From NCBI GenBank assembly GCA_902592265.1, contig CACJDV010000005.1:1-61493 (forward strand): 61,493 nt of DNA, read 5' to 3'. The DNA is from an uncultured Pelagibacteraceae bacterium (GTDB taxonomy: Bacteria > Pseudomonadota > Alphaproteobacteria > Pelagibacterales > Pelagibacteraceae). The position numbers and the translations under genes were made by a program. Every line of letters begins with the position of its first letter. Position 1 is the first letter of the stretch. This document shows positions 50,568-60,269 of the stretch, piece after piece. The notes below the pieces were generated by a model. That model was given only the letters and a program-made list of their open reading frames with translations, had not been told where the DNA came from and searched no databases.

Positions 50568-51419
50568 ATGGGTATAGTAACAACAATAGCGCCATTTGCG
50601 CTAGCTCTTATAATGTTAGGGCTTGGTGCTTCATTAACAGTAAGAGATTTCACTAGAGTTTTTCAGCATCCAAAAGAATTTTTTGTTGGTTTAATTTGCC
50701 AATTAGTTGTTCTTCCAATTGTAGGTTATATATTAATAATCATTTTAAAAACCCCATTAGAGTTAGCACTAGGAGTGATGCTAATTGCAGCTGCACCTGG
50801 TGGAGTAACTTCTAATGTACTTACTAAATTTGTAGATGGCGATGTTGCACTATCTATTTCTCTTACTGCTTTTACTAGTTTAATAAGTATTGTTTCAGTC
50901 CCTTATATTGTTTTTTTATCAATTGATTTATTTAATATTGATTATGTTGAAAAAGAAGTTTCAATGCTTGGCATATCATTGAAAATGTTTTTTGTAGTTA
51001 CCGTGCCTGTAATAATTGGAATGATTATAAGAAAATTTTTTAGTGATTTTATCGAGAATAATATGAAAATTATAGAAAAAGTATCTATAGGATTATTTTC
51101 AATTGTTTTTATTGCTATCTATATTCAGGAATGGGACAGTATCATAATGTTTCTTACTACTGCAGGAACTATCGCTTTGGTTCTAAATATTTCCATGATG
51201 ATTATAGGTTTTTATGTTGCTAAATTTTTTGCATCAGGTATTGCTCAACAAAAATGTATATCTCTTGAATGTGGATTACAAAATGGGACTTTGGCTGTTT
51301 TTGTGGGAACTCAATTGTTTGGGCAAAATATGAATTATATGGTTCCAACTGCAGCATATGCTTTGATAATGATGATGACCTCTGTTCTTTTTGTATTTTT
51401 CCTAAGAAGAAAAACTTAA
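50568..51419 (+). CDS. BASS family sodium-dependent organic anion symporter
   Basis: 283 residues with about nine hydrophobic helices. The GLGASLTVRDF, LIAAAPGGVTSNVLTKFVDGDVALSISLTAF and ECGLQNGTLAVFVGTQLF motifs mark the bile acid:Na+ symporter family, whose bacterial members move various carboxylates. An AGAGGGG ribosome site precedes the ATG. It overlaps the convergent oxidase gene by 4 bp. Substrate unknown. Confidence 0.88.
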   Translation: MGIVTTIAPFALALIMLGLGASLTVRDFTRVFQHPKEFFVGLICQLVVLPIVGYILIIILKTPLELALGVMLIAAAPGGVTSNVLTKFVDGDVALSISLTAFTSLISIVSVPYIVFLSIDLFNIDYVEKEVSMLGISLKMFFVVTVPVIIGMIIRKFFSDFIENNMKIIEKVSIGLFSIVFIAIYIQEWDSIIMFLTTAGTIALVLNISMMIIGFYVAKFFASGIAQQKCISLECGLQNGTLAVFVGTQLFGQNMNYMVPTAAYALIMMMTSVLFVFFLRRKT

Positions 51420-53860
51420 TTTTTTTTAAAATTAGTTTGTTTTAAAGGTTTGTTTATTGCTTCAATAGGATATTTTCTTTTCTCTACTTCAATAAACAAA
51501 TTTTTTTTGTGAAGTTCATCATTTGAAATATCGTTATTGATATAACCAAATGTTAAATTTTTCTTAAAATTAAAAGAATAATTACCAGATGTTGATCTAC
51601 CTATAATTTTATTTTCTAAATAAATAGGCTCATCATGAAGCAATAATGGCTCACCTGGTTTGCTATCTTTTAAAGTAAACATTACAAATCTACTTTTAAT
51701 TTTTTCTTTTTTAATTTTTTCTAAAGCTTTTTTGCCAATAAACTCGTCATCTTTTTTAGAACTTATCGTAAAAGATAAACCTGCTTGGTATTGATTTTCT
51801 TCTGGTGAAATGTCGTGTCCCCAGTGTAAAAATCCACTTTCCATTCGCATAATATCCAAGGCATGCATACCACAATTAGAGAGGTTAAAATCCTTACCTT
51901 TATTAATCAGTAATTCATAAATCTTTTTAGAATCCTCAGATTTTACATATAATTCGTAACCTAATTCTCCAACATATGATAATCTTTGAGTCCAAATTTT
52001 AATTCCCTCAATAGTGATATATTTTGCTGTACTAAATCTAAAATTATCATTTTCAAAATTATCTTTTGAAATTGATTTCATTAAAGCTCTACTTTTTGGT
52101 CCGAAAACTCCGAAAACACAATAATCATCAGTAACGTCTTTTAACTCAATATCTTTTGCAAGGTGTTTATTTATATGAAATTTGTCTCTTTCTCGCGTAG
52201 CTGCAGAGCTTATTATTCTAAAATGATCTTTATCAATACAAACAACTGTTAGATCTGTTTCAATACCACCATCAGGATTTAACATATGTGTATAAACACA
52301 TTTTCCAATCTCATTTTTAATATTAGATGTACAAATTTTTTGTAATTCCCTATGAGCCTGGATAGATTTTATCTCGAATTTCGAAAAAGGAGTTAAATCA
52401 AATAAACCAACATTTTTTATAGTATTATTTGTTTCATATTCTGCTGAAGGGTACCAATTTTGATAATTGTAACTGTATTCATATTCTGTCTTTTCTCCAT
52501 CTAATGCAAACCACATTGGTCTTTCGTAACCACCAGAAACACCAAAACACGCACCGAAACTTTTTAATTCATCGTGATATGGAAGTGTTTTTATATTTCT
52601 AGAGGTTTTGTGTTGTTTAAATGGCCAATGCATCCCATATAAATCTCCTAAAGACTCTGTAATTCTTTTTTTAATAAAACCTAAGTCAGAGTGAAATTTT
52701 TGAAATCTTTTTATGTCATAGCAAAAAATATCCTCATTAATATGTCCATTAATCAACCATTCAGCTGTAACTTTCCCAACACCTCCCCCACTTCCAATTC
52801 CAATACTATTTAAACCACAGCATACAAAGAAGTTTTTTACCTCAGGTACTTCTCCAAGCAATGTATTTGTATCTGGAGTAAATGACTCTGGACCTGAAAA
52901 AAATTTTCTAATTCCTGCTGTTTCTAAAACTGGAAATCTTTTAATTGCTGTAGCTAAATAAGGCTCAAAATGCTCAAAATTTTCTTGAAATTCTCCAAAG
53001 GAAAAATCTTCTGGAACTTTATTAATTTTATCCCATGCTGGAATTGATTGAGACTCAAAAATTCCAACTAATATTTTTCCAGCATCTTCTTTAATATAAG
53101 TTCTGTTATCAAAGTCTCTTATCACTGGTAAGGTTTTAGAAAGATTTTCAATCGGCTCAGTGATTATATAGAAGTGTTCTGCTGGATAAAGAGGAATACT
53201 TACTCCAGCTTTTACCCCAATTTGGCGGGACCACATTCCTGATGCTAAAACTATATACTCGCAATCAATTTTTTGACCATTTACTTTTACACCAGAAATT
53301 TTTCCATTTTTTTTCATGATCTCATCAACGGGAGATTCTTCAAAAATCTTTGCCCCTTCCATTCTTGCTGCTTTTGCCAACATATGTGTTACTCCAGACG
53401 GATCTGCAGCACCGTCGCCTGGCATCAAAATCCCTCCTAAAACTTCATCAGTATTTACAATTGGATAATCTTTTTTAATTTGTTCTTTATCTAAAATTCT
53501 AACATCAACATCAAAAAGTTGTGCAGTTGTTGCTTGTCTTTGAAGCTCTTGCCATCTACCTTTGTTCTCAGCAATTGAAAGTGCACCGTTTAATCTTAAT
53601 CCTGCTGAATGATCAACTTTCTTTTCAAGTTCTTTATAAAGATCCAAAGTATATTTTCTAATTTTGGTAATTGCTGCAGATGGACCTAGTTGACTTACTA
53701 ATCCAGCTGCATGCCAAGTCGTACCTGATGTTAACTGATCTCTTTCTAAAAGGATTGTATCTTTCCAACCAAATTTAGCTAAATGATAAGCAACTGAACA
53801 ACCAACTACTCCACCTCCTATAACAACAACTTTAGTGCTACTTGGAAGTTTTTTTTCCAT
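51416..53860 (-). CDS. Dimethylglycine/sarcosine dehydrogenase family protein
   Basis: 814 residues. The first 400 are a DAO-type flavin domain with VVVIGGGVVGCSVAYHLA and the covalent-FAD His in SGTTWHAAGL. The C-terminal half is a GcvT-like folate domain (VGELGYELYV, ALDIMRMESGFLHWGHDISPEEN). Family members demethylate dimethylglycine or sarcosine and transfer the C1 unit to tetrahydrofolate. The exact methylated amine substrate is not determined. It is downstream of ald with a 4-bp gap. Confidence 0.9.
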   Translation of the reverse strand: MEKKLPSSTKVVVIGGGVVGCSVAYHLAKFGWKDTILLERDQLTSGTTWHAAGLVSQLGPSAAITKIRKYTLDLYKELEKKVDHSAGLRLNGALSIAENKGRWQELQRQATTAQLFDVDVRILDKEQIKKDYPIVNTDEVLGGILMPGDGAADPSGVTHMLAKAARMEGAKIFEESPVDEIMKKNGKISGVKVNGQKIDCEYIVLASGMWSRQIGVKAGVSIPLYPAEHFYIITEPIENLSKTLPVIRDFDNRTYIKEDAGKILVGIFESQSIPAWDKINKVPEDFSFGEFQENFEHFEPYLATAIKRFPVLETAGIRKFFSGPESFTPDTNTLLGEVPEVKNFFVCCGLNSIGIGSGGGVGKVTAEWLINGHINEDIFCYDIKRFQKFHSDLGFIKKRITESLGDLYGMHWPFKQHKTSRNIKTLPYHDELKSFGACFGVSGGYERPMWFALDGEKTEYEYSYNYQNWYPSAEYETNNTIKNVGLFDLTPFSKFEIKSIQAHRELQKICTSNIKNEIGKCVYTHMLNPDGGIETDLTVVCIDKDHFRIISSAATRERDKFHINKHLAKDIELKDVTDDYCVFGVFGPKSRALMKSISKDNFENDNFRFSTAKYITIEGIKIWTQRLSYVGELGYELYVKSEDSKKIYELLINKGKDFNLSNCGMHALDIMRMESGFLHWGHDISPEENQYQAGLSFTISSKKDDEFIGKKALEKIKKEKIKSRFVMFTLKDSKPGEPLLLHDEPIYLENKIIGRSTSGNYSFNFKKNLTFGYINNDISNDELHKKNLFIEVEKRKYPIEAINKPLKQTNFKKN

Positions 53861-53864
53861 TTAA

Positions 53865-54983
53865 TTAGTTTTTGATTGCATCTCCTGGGTTAACATATTC
53901 ATGTCCAAAAACATCTGCAACAGCTTTATAAGTCACATGACCCTTATGAACATTTAATCCTGCTAAAAAGTTTTTATCTTCACTAAGAGCTTTTTGATAA
54001 CCTCTATTGGCTAATTTGACTAAATAAGGAAGTGTTGCTTTGTTTAATGCGATAGTTGATGTTCTAGGAACCCCTCCTGGCATGTTAGCCACACAATAGT
54101 GAACAACATTATCAACTATAAAAGTTGGATCATTAAAAGTTGTCGGTTTACTTGTTTCTACACAACCACCTTGATCAATTGCAACGTCAACAATAACTGA
54201 GCCTCTTTTCATTAATTTTAACATATCTTTAGTGACTAATTTGGGCGCTTCTGCTCCGGGGATTAAAACTCCTCCTACTATTAAGTCTGCTTCAGCTACT
54301 AACTTTTTTAAATCTATCTTATCACTTTGTTCTGGAATAATTTTATCTCCAAACATTTCAACTAATTGTTTTAACCTTGCTTCTGATTTATCTACAACAT
54401 GAACTTTAGCACGCATACCTGTTGCTATAGTTGCAGCGTTTTCTCCTACTACACCTCCACCTAAAATTAAAACATTCGCTGGTTCACCACCAGGAGCTCC
54501 ACCCAACAATACTCCTCTACCTTTTTGGTTTTTTTCTAAACAATGTGCTCCAGCTTGAACTGACATACGTCCTGCTACGGCACTCATAGGTGCAAGTAAA
54601 GGAAGCCTTCCATTATCATCGGTGATGGTTTCATAAGCTATATTAATACTTTTTGATTTTACTAAACCCTCTGTCAATTCTTTTGCAGCAGCTAAATGTA
54701 AATAAGTATATACGATTTGATTTTCTTTGATCATTTCAACCTCAATTTTTTGAGGTTCTTTTACTTTAACAATTATTTCAGCATCATTAAAAATATCAGT
54801 GGCTTTTTCTATGATTTTTGCGCCAGCATTTTTGTACTGATCATTATCAAAACCCGCTTCAAAACCTCCATTGTTTTCGACTAAAACTTCGTGCCCCTCG
54901 GAGACAAGAGTTTTTACACTATCCGGTGTTAAGCCTATTCTATTTTCTTGAGGTTTGATTTCTTTAGGTACGCCAATTCTCAT
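53865..54983 (-). CDS. ald: Alanine dehydrogenase
   Basis: 372 residues. MRIGVPKEIKPQENRIGLTPDS, VKVKEP with the active-site lysine, TYLHLAA with catalytic histidine, LLGGAPGGEPANVLILGGGVVGENAA (NAD site) and the VDVAIDQGGC motif are all present. It oxidises alanine to pyruvate and ammonia. Next to a class III aminotransferase, it would recycle alanine formed when pyruvate accepts the amino group. Confidence 0.95.
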   Translation of the reverse strand: MRIGVPKEIKPQENRIGLTPDSVKTLVSEGHEVLVENNGGFEAGFDNDQYKNAGAKIIEKATDIFNDAEIIVKVKEPQKIEVEMIKENQIVYTYLHLAAAKELTEGLVKSKSINIAYETITDDNGRLPLLAPMSAVAGRMSVQAGAHCLEKNQKGRGVLLGGAPGGEPANVLILGGGVVGENAATIATGMRAKVHVVDKSEARLKQLVEMFGDKIIPEQSDKIDLKKLVAEADLIVGGVLIPGAEAPKLVTKDMLKLMKRGSVIVDVAIDQGGCVETSKPTTFNDPTFIVDNVVHYCVANMPGGVPRTSTIALNKATLPYLVKLANRGYQKALSEDKNFLAGLNVHKGHVTYKAVADVFGHEYVNPGDAIKN

Positions 54984-54992
54984 TAACGAAAT

Positions 54993-56339
54993 TTAATTCT
55001 TTTTACTTTTTGCGTAATTAGTTATTCCAGTTCTTAGTTTTTCTATAATTTCATCAATATGTTTTTTTTCACAAATAAACATTGGTGCAATTATTAAACA
55101 ATCGCCAGTGGCTTTAAAATTAACTCCGGCATCATAACAATGTTTAAAAGTGGCTAAGCCCGCTTTGCCGGGTCTTCCATCAGTTTTAATATCTATACCG
55201 CCCATCATTCCATATCCTCTAATATTGTCCACTACATCAATATCTTTAAGAGAAAATAAACCTTCTTGGAAGTAAGGAGCAAGTTCTTTTGCTCTATTAA
55301 AAATATCCTCTTTTTCAAAAATATCTTGAACAGCTAATGCTGCTGCAACAGAAACTGGTATTCCTGAATAAGTGTAACCATGAAATAGTTCTATCGCACC
55401 TTTTGGAGAATTATCCATAACTGCATCATAAATTTCTTCTTTACAAGCAACCACACCAAATGGAACAATTCCATTAGTTGTTGCCTTTGCCATTGTCATT
55501 ATATCTGGTGTTACGCCAAACTCTTGAGCTCCAAATGCTGAACCAGTCCTTCCCCAACCTGTAATTACTTCATCAAAAATTAAAAGTATTTTATGTTTGT
55601 CACAAAGTTCTCTTAATCTTTGTAAATATCCAACTGGAGGAACTAAAGTTCCTGTTGAACCAGCAATTGGTTCAACAATACAAGCTGCAATATTTTCTGA
55701 ACCAAAATTAGTACAAATTCTTTCTAAGTCATTTGCAATTTCAGCGCCTGTTTCAGGTTGACCTGATATAAATTTATGTTCATCTAAATGTGTATGCCTC
55801 ATATGAACAACACCCGGCATCAGAACACTTGCATAAGCTTTGACATTATTAATCATTCCACCGACTGATGTTGCTCCAATATTCATCCCATGGTAGGCAC
55901 GTTCTCTTCCAACAAATCTAAATCTTTGACCTTCACCTCTAGCTTTATGGTAGGCAATACTAATTTTAATTGCAGTTTCAACCGCAGTAGATCCGCAAAT
56001 CGTATAAAAAATTTTGTTTAAATTACCTGGAGTATGTTTTGAAATTTTAGTAGCTAACTCAAAAGATCCACCAAATCCTTGTTGGAAGGGTTGGCAATAA
56101 TCTAAAGTTTGTAATTGATTTGTTATAGCTTCAATAATTTCTTTTCTACCATGTCCTAGAGGATTGCAAAATAATCCTGAGCTAGCATCAATTTGCGTTT
56201 TACCTTGGTGATTTTTTAAATATACACCTTTTGCCTCAACAATAAGTTTTGGATTTTCTTTAAAATCTTTATTAGATGTAAATGGCATCCAATGTTCATT
56301 TAAAGAATTTGGTACAGATGTTCTTTTTTCTGAGCTCAT
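54993..56339 (-). CDS. tpa: Class III aminotransferase, probable taurine (or beta-alanine):pyruvate aminotransferase
   Basis: 448 residues of fold-type I PLP enzyme. It has LIFDEVITGWGRTG with the PLP aspartate (about 240), the Schiff-base lysine in TMAKATTNG, and YTYSGIPVSVAAALA. The family includes omega-amino acid:pyruvate and taurine:pyruvate transaminases. Divergent tauABC and downstream ald suggest taurine as substrate and pyruvate as acceptor; sequence alone does not exclude beta-alanine or others. It begins the minus-strand operon with ald and the DMGDH-like gene. Confidence 0.8.
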   Translation of the reverse strand: MSSEKRTSVPNSLNEHWMPFTSNKDFKENPKLIVEAKGVYLKNHQGKTQIDASSGLFCNPLGHGRKEIIEAITNQLQTLDYCQPFQQGFGGSFELATKISKHTPGNLNKIFYTICGSTAVETAIKISIAYHKARGEGQRFRFVGRERAYHGMNIGATSVGGMINNVKAYASVLMPGVVHMRHTHLDEHKFISGQPETGAEIANDLERICTNFGSENIAACIVEPIAGSTGTLVPPVGYLQRLRELCDKHKILLIFDEVITGWGRTGSAFGAQEFGVTPDIMTMAKATTNGIVPFGVVACKEEIYDAVMDNSPKGAIELFHGYTYSGIPVSVAAALAVQDIFEKEDIFNRAKELAPYFQEGLFSLKDIDVVDNIRGYGMMGGIDIKTDGRPGKAGLATFKHCYDAGVNFKATGDCLIIAPMFICEKKHIDEIIEKLRTGITNYAKSKKN

Positions 56340-56515: not shown

Positions 56516-57457
56516 ATGAAAAAAATAATTAGTTTTATTCTTGGATGTTTTGTAGCTCTTAATCTCTCAATTTCTGTTGCTAATTCAGCAGCTAATGAGG
56601 TTAGAGTTGCATACTTCTTAGAGTGGCCAAGCCCAAATCTAGAGGACATGATGAAGAAAAATTTCGCCAAAGCTCTAGGAGTTCCTGTTAAGTGGACTAA
56701 CTTTACTAATGGTGGTGCAATGACTGATGCTATGTTGGCAGGAGATATTGATATCTCTTACTCTCAAGGTTTAGTTCCATTCATTAATGCTGTTAAATCA
56801 AAAGCTCCTATCAAACTTGTAGATGTAGCTATGGAATATGGCATGGGTGGTACAACATGTGTAACATCTAATGCTTCAGGTATAACGAAAGCTAACGCTA
56901 CAGAACTTGAAGGTAAAAAAGTTGCTGTTCCACTAGGTACAATGGCTGAATACGTTTTTGATGAAAGTATGAAAGTTGTTGGTGCGGACAGAAAAAAAAT
57001 GGATATCATTCAAATGGACCCTGAAGAAGGTGCAGCTGCTTTGGTGAGTGGCGATGTTGTAATGGCATGTTTATTTGGTGGTAACTCAATTAAAGCTGCA
57101 ACTGCAGTTGGATCTAGATTGCTTACAGTACAAGAAGCTAGAGACGCAGGTATCTTAGGTATCGATATAACTTCAGTAACTACTAAGTTTATGAAGGAAA
57201 ATCCAGGTATGCTAAGAACTTTTATTGAAGTAACTCATGAGGCTAATGCGAGATATAGAGCTGGCAAAAGTGATATGAACGCAATGTCGAAAGCTTCAGA
57301 AATGAAAGTTGCTGATATGAAAGAAACTTTAAGTGGCTTTAAATTTCTAACACCAGAGGAAACTAAACAATCTATGGAAAGTGGAAATCTTGATGCATTC
57401 TTAAAAGGAATGGGTACACCAAGAGGAAACGTAGATACTAGTTTCTTACCTTTATAA
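56516..57457 (+). CDS. tauA: Taurine ABC transporter substrate-binding protein
   Basis: About 313 residues. Signal peptide MKKIISFILGCFVALN to about NSAA, then VRVAYFLEWPSPNLEDMMKKNF and GDIDISYSQGLVPF, the type II binding-protein fold of the TauA/SsuA group. I use ATG 56516 with AGGAAGAGG at 56503-56511 upstream rather than the TTG at 56483. Followed by hairpin terminator, tauB and tauC. Other organosulfonates could be substrates. Confidence 0.87.
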   Translation: MKKIISFILGCFVALNLSISVANSAANEVRVAYFLEWPSPNLEDMMKKNFAKALGVPVKWTNFTNGGAMTDAMLAGDIDISYSQGLVPFINAVKSKAPIKLVDVAMEYGMGGTTCVTSNASGITKANATELEGKKVAVPLGTMAEYVFDESMKVVGADRKKMDIIQMDPEEGAAALVSGDVVMACLFGGNSIKAATAVGSRLLTVQEARDAGILGIDITSVTTKFMKENPGMLRTFIEVTHEANARYRAGKSDMNAMSKASEMKVADMKETLSGFKFLTPEETKQSMESGNLDAFLKGMGTPRGNVDTSFLPL

Positions 57458-57545: not shown

Positions 57546-58343
57546 ATGAGTGATTTAGTTTCACAAAATCTAAACATGATTTTTAAAACTCCTAAAGGAG
57601 AAACTGTTCATGCATTAAAAGATTTAAATTTTACTCTTAAAAAAGGTGAGCTTCTCACAGTTCTTGGGCCGTCTGGTTGTGGAAAGACCACATTGCTAAA
57701 CATTACTGCAGGATTTATTAGGCCAACTTCAGGAAGTATTACTCTAAATAATAAAGAAATAGATGGGCCAGGAGTTGAACGAGGAATGGTTTTTCAGCAA
57801 GGTGCTTTATTTGAATGGCTAACAGTTGCTGAAAATGTCAACTTTGGATTAAGAATGAAAAAAGAAGATCCAGTTGAAACACAAAAAAAAGTTGATGAAT
57901 GGTTAGAGATTGTTGGATTAAAGGGTTTTGGGAATACTCCAACTTATCAGTTATCTGGAGGAATGCAGCAAAGAGTTGCCCTTGCAAGATGTCTAATCAA
58001 CAACCCAGATTTGATTTTGATGGATGAACCATTAGGAGCTCTTGACGCGCTTACAAGAGAAAAAATGCAGTCCCTAGTTTTAAAAATTTGGAAAGAGACT
58101 GGCAAAACAATTATCCTAATTACTCATTCAGTTGAAGAAGCTTTGCTTCTTGGGGAAAGATTATATGTAATGGCTCCAAGGCCGGGAAGGATACACAAAG
58201 AATACAATCTGCCATTTGCTTCAATGGGATTAAAAGAGGACTTAAGGGAGATTAAAAAAAATAAAGATTTTTCTCAAAAACGAGAAGAAATTTTAGAAAT
58301 GATCTGGAACATGGAAGAAGAAATTATGGGGAAAGATAATTAA
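57546..58343 (+). CDS. tauB: Taurine ABC transporter ATP-binding protein
   Basis: 265 residues. Walker A GPSGCGKTTLLN (near residue 40), signature LSGGMQQRVALARCL, Walker B LILMDEPLGALD, and switch His in ITHSVEEALLLG. Starts 28 bp after the terminator hairpin. The TAA stop abuts the tauC ATG. Subfamily is that of nitrate/sulfonate/taurine importers. Confidence 0.92.
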   Translation: MSDLVSQNLNMIFKTPKGETVHALKDLNFTLKKGELLTVLGPSGCGKTTLLNITAGFIRPTSGSITLNNKEIDGPGVERGMVFQQGALFEWLTVAENVNFGLRMKKEDPVETQKKVDEWLEIVGLKGFGNTPTYQLSGGMQQRVALARCLINNPDLILMDEPLGALDALTREKMQSLVLKIWKETGKTIILITHSVEEALLLGERLYVMAPRPGRIHKEYNLPFASMGLKEDLREIKKNKDFSQKREEILEMIWNMEEEIMGKDN

Positions 58344-60269
58344 ATGTTAACACAAATATTAACTTTTCTCATATTTTTTGCTGTAGTTGGCTGTATTCTT
58401 TATGGAAGAAGACTAATAAGAACTGAAAAAGTAGATGCGGTATTTGGAAATCCTGAAAGAGCATTAGGTGGTACTCACTGGGTAATTGTTGGAAGTAGCT
58501 TTTTACTTTTAATTTGGCTCTATTATTCTTGGGATATAGCAAAAGGATTTTACCCAAAATCTGCTAACGAGTTATGCCAAGTTGCAAAAGTTAATGACTC
58601 TTTACTTGGATTAAAATATCAATTTCCAATAGAGGAAAGAGAGTTCAAAAGTACATCACAAATAAAAAAAGAAAATAAAAATTTAAGATTAATCCAAAAT
58701 GAAATTCAAAATTCTAAGGAACTAAATAGTCAACAAAAAAATGTGCTTATTAGTTATATTAGTAAAACTAATCAACTTATCCCGCTACTTACAAATGAAG
58801 ATTTATTAGAAAATGAAACTAAACAAAAAATAGATGATATCACTGGAAAAATTAATCTATTAACTGAAAATTTCCAAAAACCTGATTATCCATTTGAAAG
58901 TGAGCAGGAACTCAATAAGAGACTCAAAGCAGTAGAGGAAGAAGGTGGCTGGGGTATAACTAAAGTAGATGCAGGCTCTGGTTCTATTGAAAATACATTA
59001 GAAGTGCCTTTGGTGCCTGCAACATATAGAGGTTTAAAGTTTCACACTGCCGCTCAAGAATTAAGCTTAATAAGTGACGAATTTTTTAAATTAAGAAATC
59101 ATAACCCTCAATTTAAAAGTAAGATTAAAGAACTTAAAGAAGAAATTAAATCTTATAGAAAAAATTTGGACGATAGTCAGGAAGTAGCTTCAACATACGC
59201 AAAAAATATAGTTAAGATTGCTAGAAGAATTGAATTTGCAAGTATTTACCCTCCAAATGCATTAGATAAGATGCAGGCAGCAATTGTAAAATTTGATAAT
59301 GCTCAAAATAAAGAACAAGGTGGATTGAGATTAATAGATATTTTCTTATTCCCTGCTGGAACTATAGTTGCCAGTGGTCCAAGTTGTTCAGAACAGGGAT
59401 CTGGTAGATGGTTACCTAAACCATCCGATACTTTCAATAAATTCATATTAATGTCTAAACCTAGCGTAGGTTATAAAGATATTCCTCTATTGTGGATACA
59501 GATGGTTGATGTGAGCAAAATGATTGGTTTTATTTTGCCAGACTGGATAGCAGATATTTTACCAGGTGAGTACCCTGTTCATAGTAAAGATGGAATAGTA
59601 AAACAAAACTTTAAAGGTGGAGTTTTAAAAATTGTAACTGGTGATTTTAATTTGTTTAAAGTGCCTGTTCCTTACGGACATATTTGGGACTCTTTTTTAA
59701 GAGTTTTTCTTGGTTTAGTTTTCGGAATATTAATTGGTGTGCCGCTTGGTCTATTTATGGGATTAAATAGATTCGCAAAAGGTTTTTTTGATCCTTTGAT
59801 TGAGCTTTATAGACCAGTACCGCCACTTGCATGGGCTCCTCTTATCATCTCAGTTTTGGGAATTGATAATACTGGAAAAGTGTTTTTACTATTCATGGTT
59901 TCTTTGTCGATAATGATAATTTCTGCTCGAGCAGGAGCATCTGGAACTCAACTATCAAAAATTCATGCAGCTCACTCATTAGGAGCATCAAAAAGACAAA
60001 TATTAAGACATGTTATTTTTCCTAACTCATTACCGGAGATACTTACTGGTATAAGAGTTGCTGTAGGTATGTGTTGGGGGACCTTGGTAGCTGCAGAATT
60101 TTTAGCTGGTACTACTGGTATTGGTTTTGTTGAAAATGTAGCTAAGAAATATTTTCAATATGAGGTTATATGGATAACAATTTTTATCATGGGAATGCTT
60201 GGATTATTGTTTGATATTACTTTAAGAAAAATAATTGATAAAACAATACCTTGGAGAGGTAAAGGTTAA
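58344..60269 (+). CDS. tauC: Taurine ABC transporter permease with large N-terminal insertion
   Basis: 641 residues, more than twice the usual TauC (about 275). Two hydrophobic helices lie at residues 5-20 and 46-63. A hydrophilic helical/coiled-coil region with no recognisable domain occupies about 70-355. From about 357 (WLPKPSDTFNKF) the sequence matches standard TauC: DPLIELYRPVPPLAWAPL, then the EAA loop AAHSLGASKRQILRHVIFP near 541-560 and five core helices. The core is intact. The insert sits between the first helices and the LPxP motif. Confidence 0.88.
   Translation: MLTQILTFLIFFAVVGCILYGRRLIRTEKVDAVFGNPERALGGTHWVIVGSSFLLLIWLYYSWDIAKGFYPKSANELCQVAKVNDSLLGLKYQFPIEEREFKSTSQIKKENKNLRLIQNEIQNSKELNSQQKNVLISYISKTNQLIPLLTNEDLLENETKQKIDDITGKINLLTENFQKPDYPFESEQELNKRLKAVEEEGGWGITKVDAGSGSIENTLEVPLVPATYRGLKFHTAAQELSLISDEFFKLRNHNPQFKSKIKELKEEIKSYRKNLDDSQEVASTYAKNIVKIARRIEFASIYPPNALDKMQAAIVKFDNAQNKEQGGLRLIDIFLFPAGTIVASGPSCSEQGSGRWLPKPSDTFNKFILMSKPSVGYKDIPLLWIQMVDVSKMIGFILPDWIADILPGEYPVHSKDGIVKQNFKGGVLKIVTGDFNLFKVPVPYGHIWDSFLRVFLGLVFGILIGVPLGLFMGLNRFAKGFFDPLIELYRPVPPLAWAPLIISVLGIDNTGKVFLLFMVSLSIMIISARAGASGTQLSKIHAAHSLGASKRQILRHVIFPNSLPEILTGIRVAVGMCWGTLVAAEFLAGTTGIGFVENVAKKYFQYEVIWITIFIMGMLGLLFDITLRKIIDKTIPWRGKG

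Follow-up and report, generated by a model that had tools for sequence, protein, structure and literature searches.

A long TauC-like permease in SAR11 bacteria carries a predicted helical periplasmic insert, possibly a docking domain for the binding protein

Introduction

Importer permeases with large periplasmic loops are already known. In type I importers, the binding protein must land on the periplasmic face of the permease, and MalF possesses a domain of Ig-like fold, P2, that sits between TM3 and TM4. This periplasmic loop reportedly interacts with the binding protein MalE, according to work attributed to Daus and to Grote, both from 2009 (cited in PMC3328499). A helical example is provided by the sensor TorS, whose periplasmic bundle holds the binding protein TorT in both apo and loaded states, as described in the excerpted text of one report (PMC6321045).

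In this study, we analyzed a stretch of 61,493 nucleotides from an uncultured Pelagibacteraceae bacterium (GCA_902592265.1, contig CACJDV010000005.1), hereafter the window. SAR11 bacteria are abundant in the ocean and have streamlined genomes. Taurine uptake by SAR11 cells at sea has been measured and is ecologically large, according to the excerpted part of a field study (PMC6647121). The window encodes a TauABC-like importer with a permease of unusual length, and a limited literature search returned no account of such a long TauC.

Results

Anatomy of the long permease

The tauC-like reading frame begins on the base directly after the tauB stop codon and encodes the following parts:

58344..60269, + strand: tauC-like permease, long form, 641 aa; single intact ORF with its ATG at 58344
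58344..58469, + strand: extra N-terminal TM helix (residues ~5-24) and short FGNPER loop, residues 1-42 (hydropathy, alignment with E. coli TauC)
58470..58535, + strand: equivalent of canonical TM1, residues 43-64 (hydropathy, alignment with E. coli TauC)
58536..59396, + strand: insert 1, predicted helical bundle, residues 65-351, limits approximate (alignment, models, profile comparison, purifying selection)
58575..58577, + strand: codon of Cys78, one of only two cysteines between TM1 and the core
59385..59387, + strand: codon of Cys348, the proposed disulfide partner of Cys78
59397..59495, + strand: LPxP loop (GRWLPKPSD), residues 352-384, common to other aligned TauC-like permeases (alignment)
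59496..59672, + strand: insert 2, residues 385-443, moderately hydrophobic (alignment)
59673..60266, + strand: permease core, residues 444-641, BPD_transp_1 (Pfam, NCBIfam, alignment)

The permease core, the LPxP loop and the gene order tauA-tauB-tauC are shared with E. coli, whose TauC (NC_000913.3), however, is 275 aa long and lacks the extra TM helix and both inserts. Alignment with this protein and with shorter alphaproteobacterial relatives set the limits of the inserts, which are approximate, and gave lengths of 287 aa for insert 1 and 59 aa for insert 2. The preliminary description of the window had reported about 290 extra residues ahead of the permease core, which agrees with insert 1. 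It had placed the start of a normal TauC near residue 357; the LPxP loop is indeed found at ~352-384, but it is followed by insert 2 rather than directly by the core. The large insert is therefore not the sole surplus, as had been supposed, since insert 2 and the extra N-terminal TM helix (residues 1-42) are also present.

Homology to permeases is limited to the C-terminal part of the protein, of which the last 198 residues form an ordinary permease core. Pfam BPD_transp_1 (PF00528) matched residues 465-628 with 90.2 bits against a gathering score of 26.4, and tauB-like and tauA-like genes lie upstream, which places the protein among the type I ABC importer permeases. The NCBIfam TauC model (NF007545) matched residues 444-640 with 178.6 bits, below its curated cut-off of 342, and the TauA and TauB of the window likewise fall below their equivalog cut-offs. 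Therefore, we refer to the protein as TauC-like and not as a strict TauC.

Both inserts are located between canonical TM1, which probably runs from cytoplasm to periplasm, and TM2, and the homologous LPxP loop of the family is periplasmic. From this topology and homology, we infer that both inserts are periplasmic, in line with the earlier suggestion that the large insert occupies one membrane face. The residues R22, R23, R26 and K29, just past the extra TM helix, fit a cytoplasmic end, while the loop 25-42 as a whole carries no net positive charge (three K/R versus three D/E).

Predicted fold and family searches

Both AlphaFold2 models depict insert 1 as helical, as the preliminary description had expected. 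Both are of moderate confidence and rest on a shallow alignment. The full-length model, built on 55 SAR11 rows, had a mean pLDDT of 51.1; block means were 66-89 over most of residues 71-330, with low blocks of 53 at 91-100 and 33 at 201-220, and the core was modeled poorly. The model of the insert alone (residues 62-375) averaged 63.8, and 64 of its residues reached at least 90; it placed helices at 102-122, 129-143, 157-177, 187-199, 228-248, 255-273, 277-298 and 304-324, as well as short strands in a low-confidence linker at 207-218. Cys348 was of low confidence in both models, and Cys78 fell within a block averaging 66 in the full model and was of low confidence in the insert model. Thus, insert 1 is predicted to be a bundle of about eight helices, mostly of 13-22 residues. 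A stretch of ~11 extra residues (GSGSIENT) at TauC ~209-219 (58968-59000) lies in the linker between the bundle halves; it occurs in most aligned SAR11 rows and is absent from row L107 and from the rows of families f110 and f118.

The insert is charged, as had been noted earlier: 30% of residues 67-330 are charged (40 K/R and 38 D/E). The accompanying idea of a coiled coil did not hold, since the models return a bundle of short helices. No helix in the insert model exceeds 22 residues; the longest in the full model are one of 28 residues and one at 37-93 that continues from the TM helix. The Pfam model LRS4 scored 1.1 bits above its cut-off in the window protein (25.3 versus 24.2) and matched one of nine family members, and IFT20 matched two of the nine and fell below its cut-off in the window protein. 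We rejected a long coiled coil of the LRS4 or IFT20 type because these matches are patchy across the family and the insert-model helices are too short.

Searches of Pfam, NCBIfam and PDB sequences with the insert gave weak helix-type matches and no credible family; the best PDB profile match was EzrA (E 7e-4), again of helix type. Pfam HBM was not among the 22 families matched by nine members at E <= 10, a search in which the HMMER filters drop most weak matches. Foldseek returned no match at E <= 0.001, and hhalign revealed no internal duplication of the bundle (E 0.39).

In structural comparisons with VIA-align, TorS and McpS domains were the top three matches of both models. For the full model, TorS reached Z 10.6 and McpS 10.5 (rmsd ~11), followed by an unrelated FliT complex at 10.0. 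For the insert model, the top three had Z 10.4-10.6 with 104-129 aligned residues and rmsd 3.2-5.5, against a bar of 13 for helical bundles; McpS reached 10.6 (109 aligned, 3.2 A) and TorS 10.5 (129 aligned, 5.5 A), while unrelated rows ranged from 9.2 down and PilJ scored 8.5. The top match thus leads the first unrelated row by 0.6 in the full model or 1.4 in the insert model, and by the VIA-align guide, a Z below ~13 for helical bundles may reflect merely a common arrangement. The match lists also contain bestrophin, ABC exporters, 14-3-3, a flagellar chaperone complex and designed bundles, and therefore we regard McpS and TorS as a lead only. A published comparison of the McpN PilJ domain reports Z 10-12 for McpS, TorS and vinculin-type bundles alike (PMC6381276), so such values cannot separate sensors from other bundles.

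Operon and taurine context

The genes flanking the permease are as follows:

57546..58343, + strand: tauB-like ATPase (Pfam, NCBIfam)
56516..57457, + strand: tauA-like periplasmic substrate-binding protein (NCBIfam, alignment)
54993..56339, - strand: class III (omega) aminotransferase, transcribed divergently from tauA; possibly deaminates taurine (Pfam, NCBIfam)
53868..54983, - strand: alanine dehydrogenase (TIGR00518 above cut-off)

The closest model for the aminotransferase is the omega-aminotransferase AptA, which scored above its cut-off. Sulfoacetaldehyde acetyltransferase (Xsc) is encoded elsewhere in the genome (G000:C10; 966 bits versus a cut-off of 676). The genome thus encodes an aminotransferase, an alanine dehydrogenase and Xsc, which plausibly constitute a taurine route. 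In family f118, the long tauC is clustered with tauA, tauB, the aminotransferase gene and xsc; L159 has all of them together.

In the aligned TauA pocket, D205 of E. coli is kept, but Q30 is replaced by F and E106 by T. Loss of Gln30 or Glu106 weakens or abolishes binding in E. coli TauA, as stated in part of a structural report (PMC6906117). Taurine as the substrate thus fits the gene context, although two key pocket residues of the E. coli protein are not kept; hypotaurine or beta-alanine may be the substrate instead. The window TauA shares FLEW and SQG motifs with the TauA of the aligned long and Ig forms (see below), and two shared cysteines in it may form a disulfide. Beside the taurine genes lies an 814-aa protein with oxidoreductase-like and GcvT-like parts (51419-53860, - strand), and near them a bile acid:sodium symporter family protein (50568-51416, + strand).

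Distribution and evolution

The long tauC is conserved in SAR11. On GTDB contigs, it is whole in 77 of 80 SAR11 loci, the best 80 of 575 confirmed, the remaining three being cut by contig ends, and among these best 80 it encodes 641 aa in 68 loci and 640 aa in nine. Within the same genus, 26 of 37 genomes carry it (25 whole, one contig-cut), including 6/6 of those at least 90% complete. It was found in none of 24 genomes of the neighboring SAR11 family, nor in G158, a complete genome of another genus in the same family.

An even draw of the class, in which at most four candidates per genome were scored, gave near-full-length matches in 6/289 genomes from three families (f1, f118 and f110). Two further alphaproteobacterial families, f118 and f110, carry the long form at 42-45% identity. 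In f118, it was present in all three genomes; in f110, matches occurred in 35 of 61 genomes, and 29 of these 35 rows encode 643-652 aa. Four of the remaining six rows are cut by contig ends, the G402 frame stops inside the core, and G399 is partial. The G399 copy (L194, 645-1556, - strand) is a 5'-truncated long-type tauC that starts from ~residue 370 and lacks insert 1 and TM1; another, unrelated gene lies just upstream with no contig end near, which points to a broken copy or a misjoined contig.

An insert-profile search of the phylum matched one of 398 genomes, the window's own, in a draw that also held no f110 or f118 carrier, so that rare carriers can be missed. Matches of some kind occur in 1538 plasmid records, but not one of these reaches 80% coverage of the query, and no relative was confirmed on viral contigs.

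Insert 1 is homologous between SAR11 and f110/f118 from ~residue 102 onward (hhalign of 14 versus 15 rows: 99.8%, E 5e-29, 215 columns). Residues 111-225 share 14-18% identity between SAR11 and four other-family rows, compared with 71% for the core. A tree was built from 42 cores: of 49 rows requested, 46 could be retrieved, and one cut row and three duplicates were then removed. In it, the 19 long rows all group in a single clade (100/100), next to short relatives with a common FGD motif; the fork joining the long rows with the short-plus-Ig rows was weakly supported (80/85).

An unrelated domain in the same loop

In other TauC-like permeases (L143, L124 and L122), the TM1-TM2 loop contains an insert of Ig type instead; these rows form a clade of their own (100/99) among the short ones. 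Their length is 420 aa as annotated in L143, with frames of 452 aa in L124 and 462 aa in L122, and Big_9 scored above its cut-off of 23.6 in both Ig inserts tested (27.7 and 24.9 bits). Like the long form, they have an extra N-terminal TM helix and an insert in this loop; unlike it, their insert is a Big_9 Ig domain, to which the helical bundle is unrelated. In the class draw, the Ig form was matched over its full length in 2/289 genomes. Because the Ig and long forms fall in separate clades, the core tree is most simply read as two unrelated domains gained independently at one site. The preliminary description held that no known importer permease of this class has such an insert; this was too strong, considering MalF P2 and the Ig domain of these TauC-like relatives.

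The Ig-insert genes lie at 3335-4597 in L143, at 4999-6333 of L161 (L161/L122) and also in L124. In L143 and L161, tauABC-like genes stand beside aminotransferase and aldehyde dehydrogenase genes, possibly a hypotaurine-type route. TauC-like permeases of f50 (L126-L128) have a short Cys-containing extension after LPxP, where the same loop is expanded.

Constraint and the cysteine pair

Both inserts are under purifying selection. In SAR11, inserts 1 and 2 have dN/dS values of 0.071 and 0.079, compared with 0.018 in the core, calculated over 600 random pairs from 69 genes of 641 aa (the window and 68 loci; the nine 640-aa and three cut genes were omitted), and these ratios are rough because dS is near 1. 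Exactly two cysteines, 78 and 348, occur between TM1 and the core in 121/121 rows in which both anchor motifs are present (106 from SAR11, window included and many of them near-copies, 3 from f118 and 12 from f110), and they bracket insert 1. Of rows missed by the anchor filter, L158 has both cysteines and L108 is a fragment. Of 21 SAR11 genomes, 17 have DsbB above its cut-off, and of the near-complete ones 11/11 do; it was not found in the window's own genome, which is 86% complete. Given the invariant bracketing pair and the distribution of DsbB, a Cys78-Cys348 disulfide clamp is likely.

Discussion

Overall, we propose a putative mechanism in which insert 1 is a periplasmic accessory domain that docks TauA in a type I ABC importer resembling TauABC, a reading to which we assign a probability of roughly 0.4. 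The TM1-TM2 periplasmic loop would have expanded into a folded accessory domain, the helical bundle 65-351, with a Cys78-Cys348 disulfide closing its base, a smaller interfacial segment (385-443) added and the extra N-terminal helix anchoring the start. With a single permease gene, a TauC homodimer is expected, in which two bundles would flank the channel entrance. They may dock TauA there and hold it, so that its local concentration rises or its orientation is set. Since the TM1-TM2 loop domain would be at the landing place of the binding protein, and since MalF P2 and TorS provide precedents, we judge docking, with modest confidence, to be the most likely role and assembly or stability its main rival. 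Like the domain proposed here for the long TauC, MalF P2 is large, periplasmic and built into the permease of a type I importer; however, it is Ig-like and lies between TM3 and TM4, whereas the TauC insert is predicted to be helical and lies in the TM1-TM2 loop.

Part of our data counts against docking. The distal helices (111-225) are the least conserved part of the insert, unlike a strongly conserved docking face. Covariation with insert 1 over 95 loci was unspecific, with a partial r of 0.43 for TauA and 0.54 for TauB; the TauA value dropped to 0.12 after controlling for the rest of TauC, and 28 of 500 permutations were as high.

The insert could instead be a structural or assembly module, in which the bundles of the dimer pack together or on an envelope component and stabilize the transporter without touching TauA. 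We consider this possible, though on balance improbable. A helical bundle whose distal part is poorly conserved, yet under purifying selection, would suit such a module, and the extra TM helix and the cysteine bracket suggest a stabilized scaffold; however, SAR11 genomes keep the insert despite their streamlining.

It is doubtful that the insert is a neutral loop expansion, tolerated without a function of its own. The insert evolves approximately four times faster than the core, the same loop holds other extra sequences elsewhere, and the tauC piece of the f110 genome G399 lacks the insert, although TM1 is missing there as well. Nevertheless, dN/dS is far below 1, length is nearly constant at 640 or 641 aa in 77/77 whole rows of the best 80 of 575 and at 643-652 aa in 29 of 35 f110 frames, and the cysteine pair is found in every one of the 121 rows.

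A narrower form of the docking reading is somewhat more doubtful still: an HBM/TorS-like sensor module may have been built into the permease as a permanent dock for the binding protein, and a related lineage would have acquired an Ig module at this site. Alternatively, the insert could sense a ligand in the manner of sensor-kinase or chemoreceptor domains (HBM/TorS-like) and gate transport according to substrate level, which we consider unlikely. The ligand-binding domains of McpS and TorS head the structural lists of both models, and the HBM, TorS and PilJ sensor domains share with insert 1 the layout of a helical bundle between two TM helices. However, these domains have no sequence match to the insert, and their kinase or chemoreceptor output is absent from the permease. 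Moreover, HBM is missing from the Pfam matches of the nine members at E <= 10, Z remains at ~10.5, below the helical bar, and the distal part is poorly conserved.

An inverted topology, in which the insert would be a cytoplasmic coiled coil acting on TauB, is very improbable. Its helices are charged, weak Pfam coiled-coil matches exist (LRS4 narrowly exceeding its cut-off), TauB distances track the insert, and hydropathy shows two moderately hydrophobic stretches, 330-348 and 380-398. However, the flanking TM helices map to canonical TM1 and the core, and LRS4 matched a single member of nine. In addition, among 10 rows, the stretch before LPxP (330-348) is weakly hydrophobic (0.5-1.1) in the eight non-SAR11 rows and reaches 1.43 and 1.35 in the two from SAR11; the stretch 380-398 is moderate (1.19-1.87) in all 10.

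Finally, misassembly, which the preliminary description had named as a possible refutation, or a chance gene fusion was rejected as practically excluded, because the gene is whole in 77 of 80 SAR11 loci, the best 80 of 575 confirmed, each a separate assembly record from single cells or MAGs, and recurs in 26 of 37 same-genus genomes and in two other families.

The long TauC is of interest for its spread and conservation in SAR11 and as a clean example of a permease loop that has taken up two unrelated domains. A marine survey counts tauC by KEGG label, as given in its excerpted text (PMC6647121), and such counting would hide the long architecture. If the sensor-module form of the dock is true, the sensor kinases and importers of oligotrophic bacteria would capture loaded binding proteins in a common way. 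If the permease does carry a dock for TauA, models of uptake in which the binding protein is encountered by free diffusion would need to change for a common marine importer.
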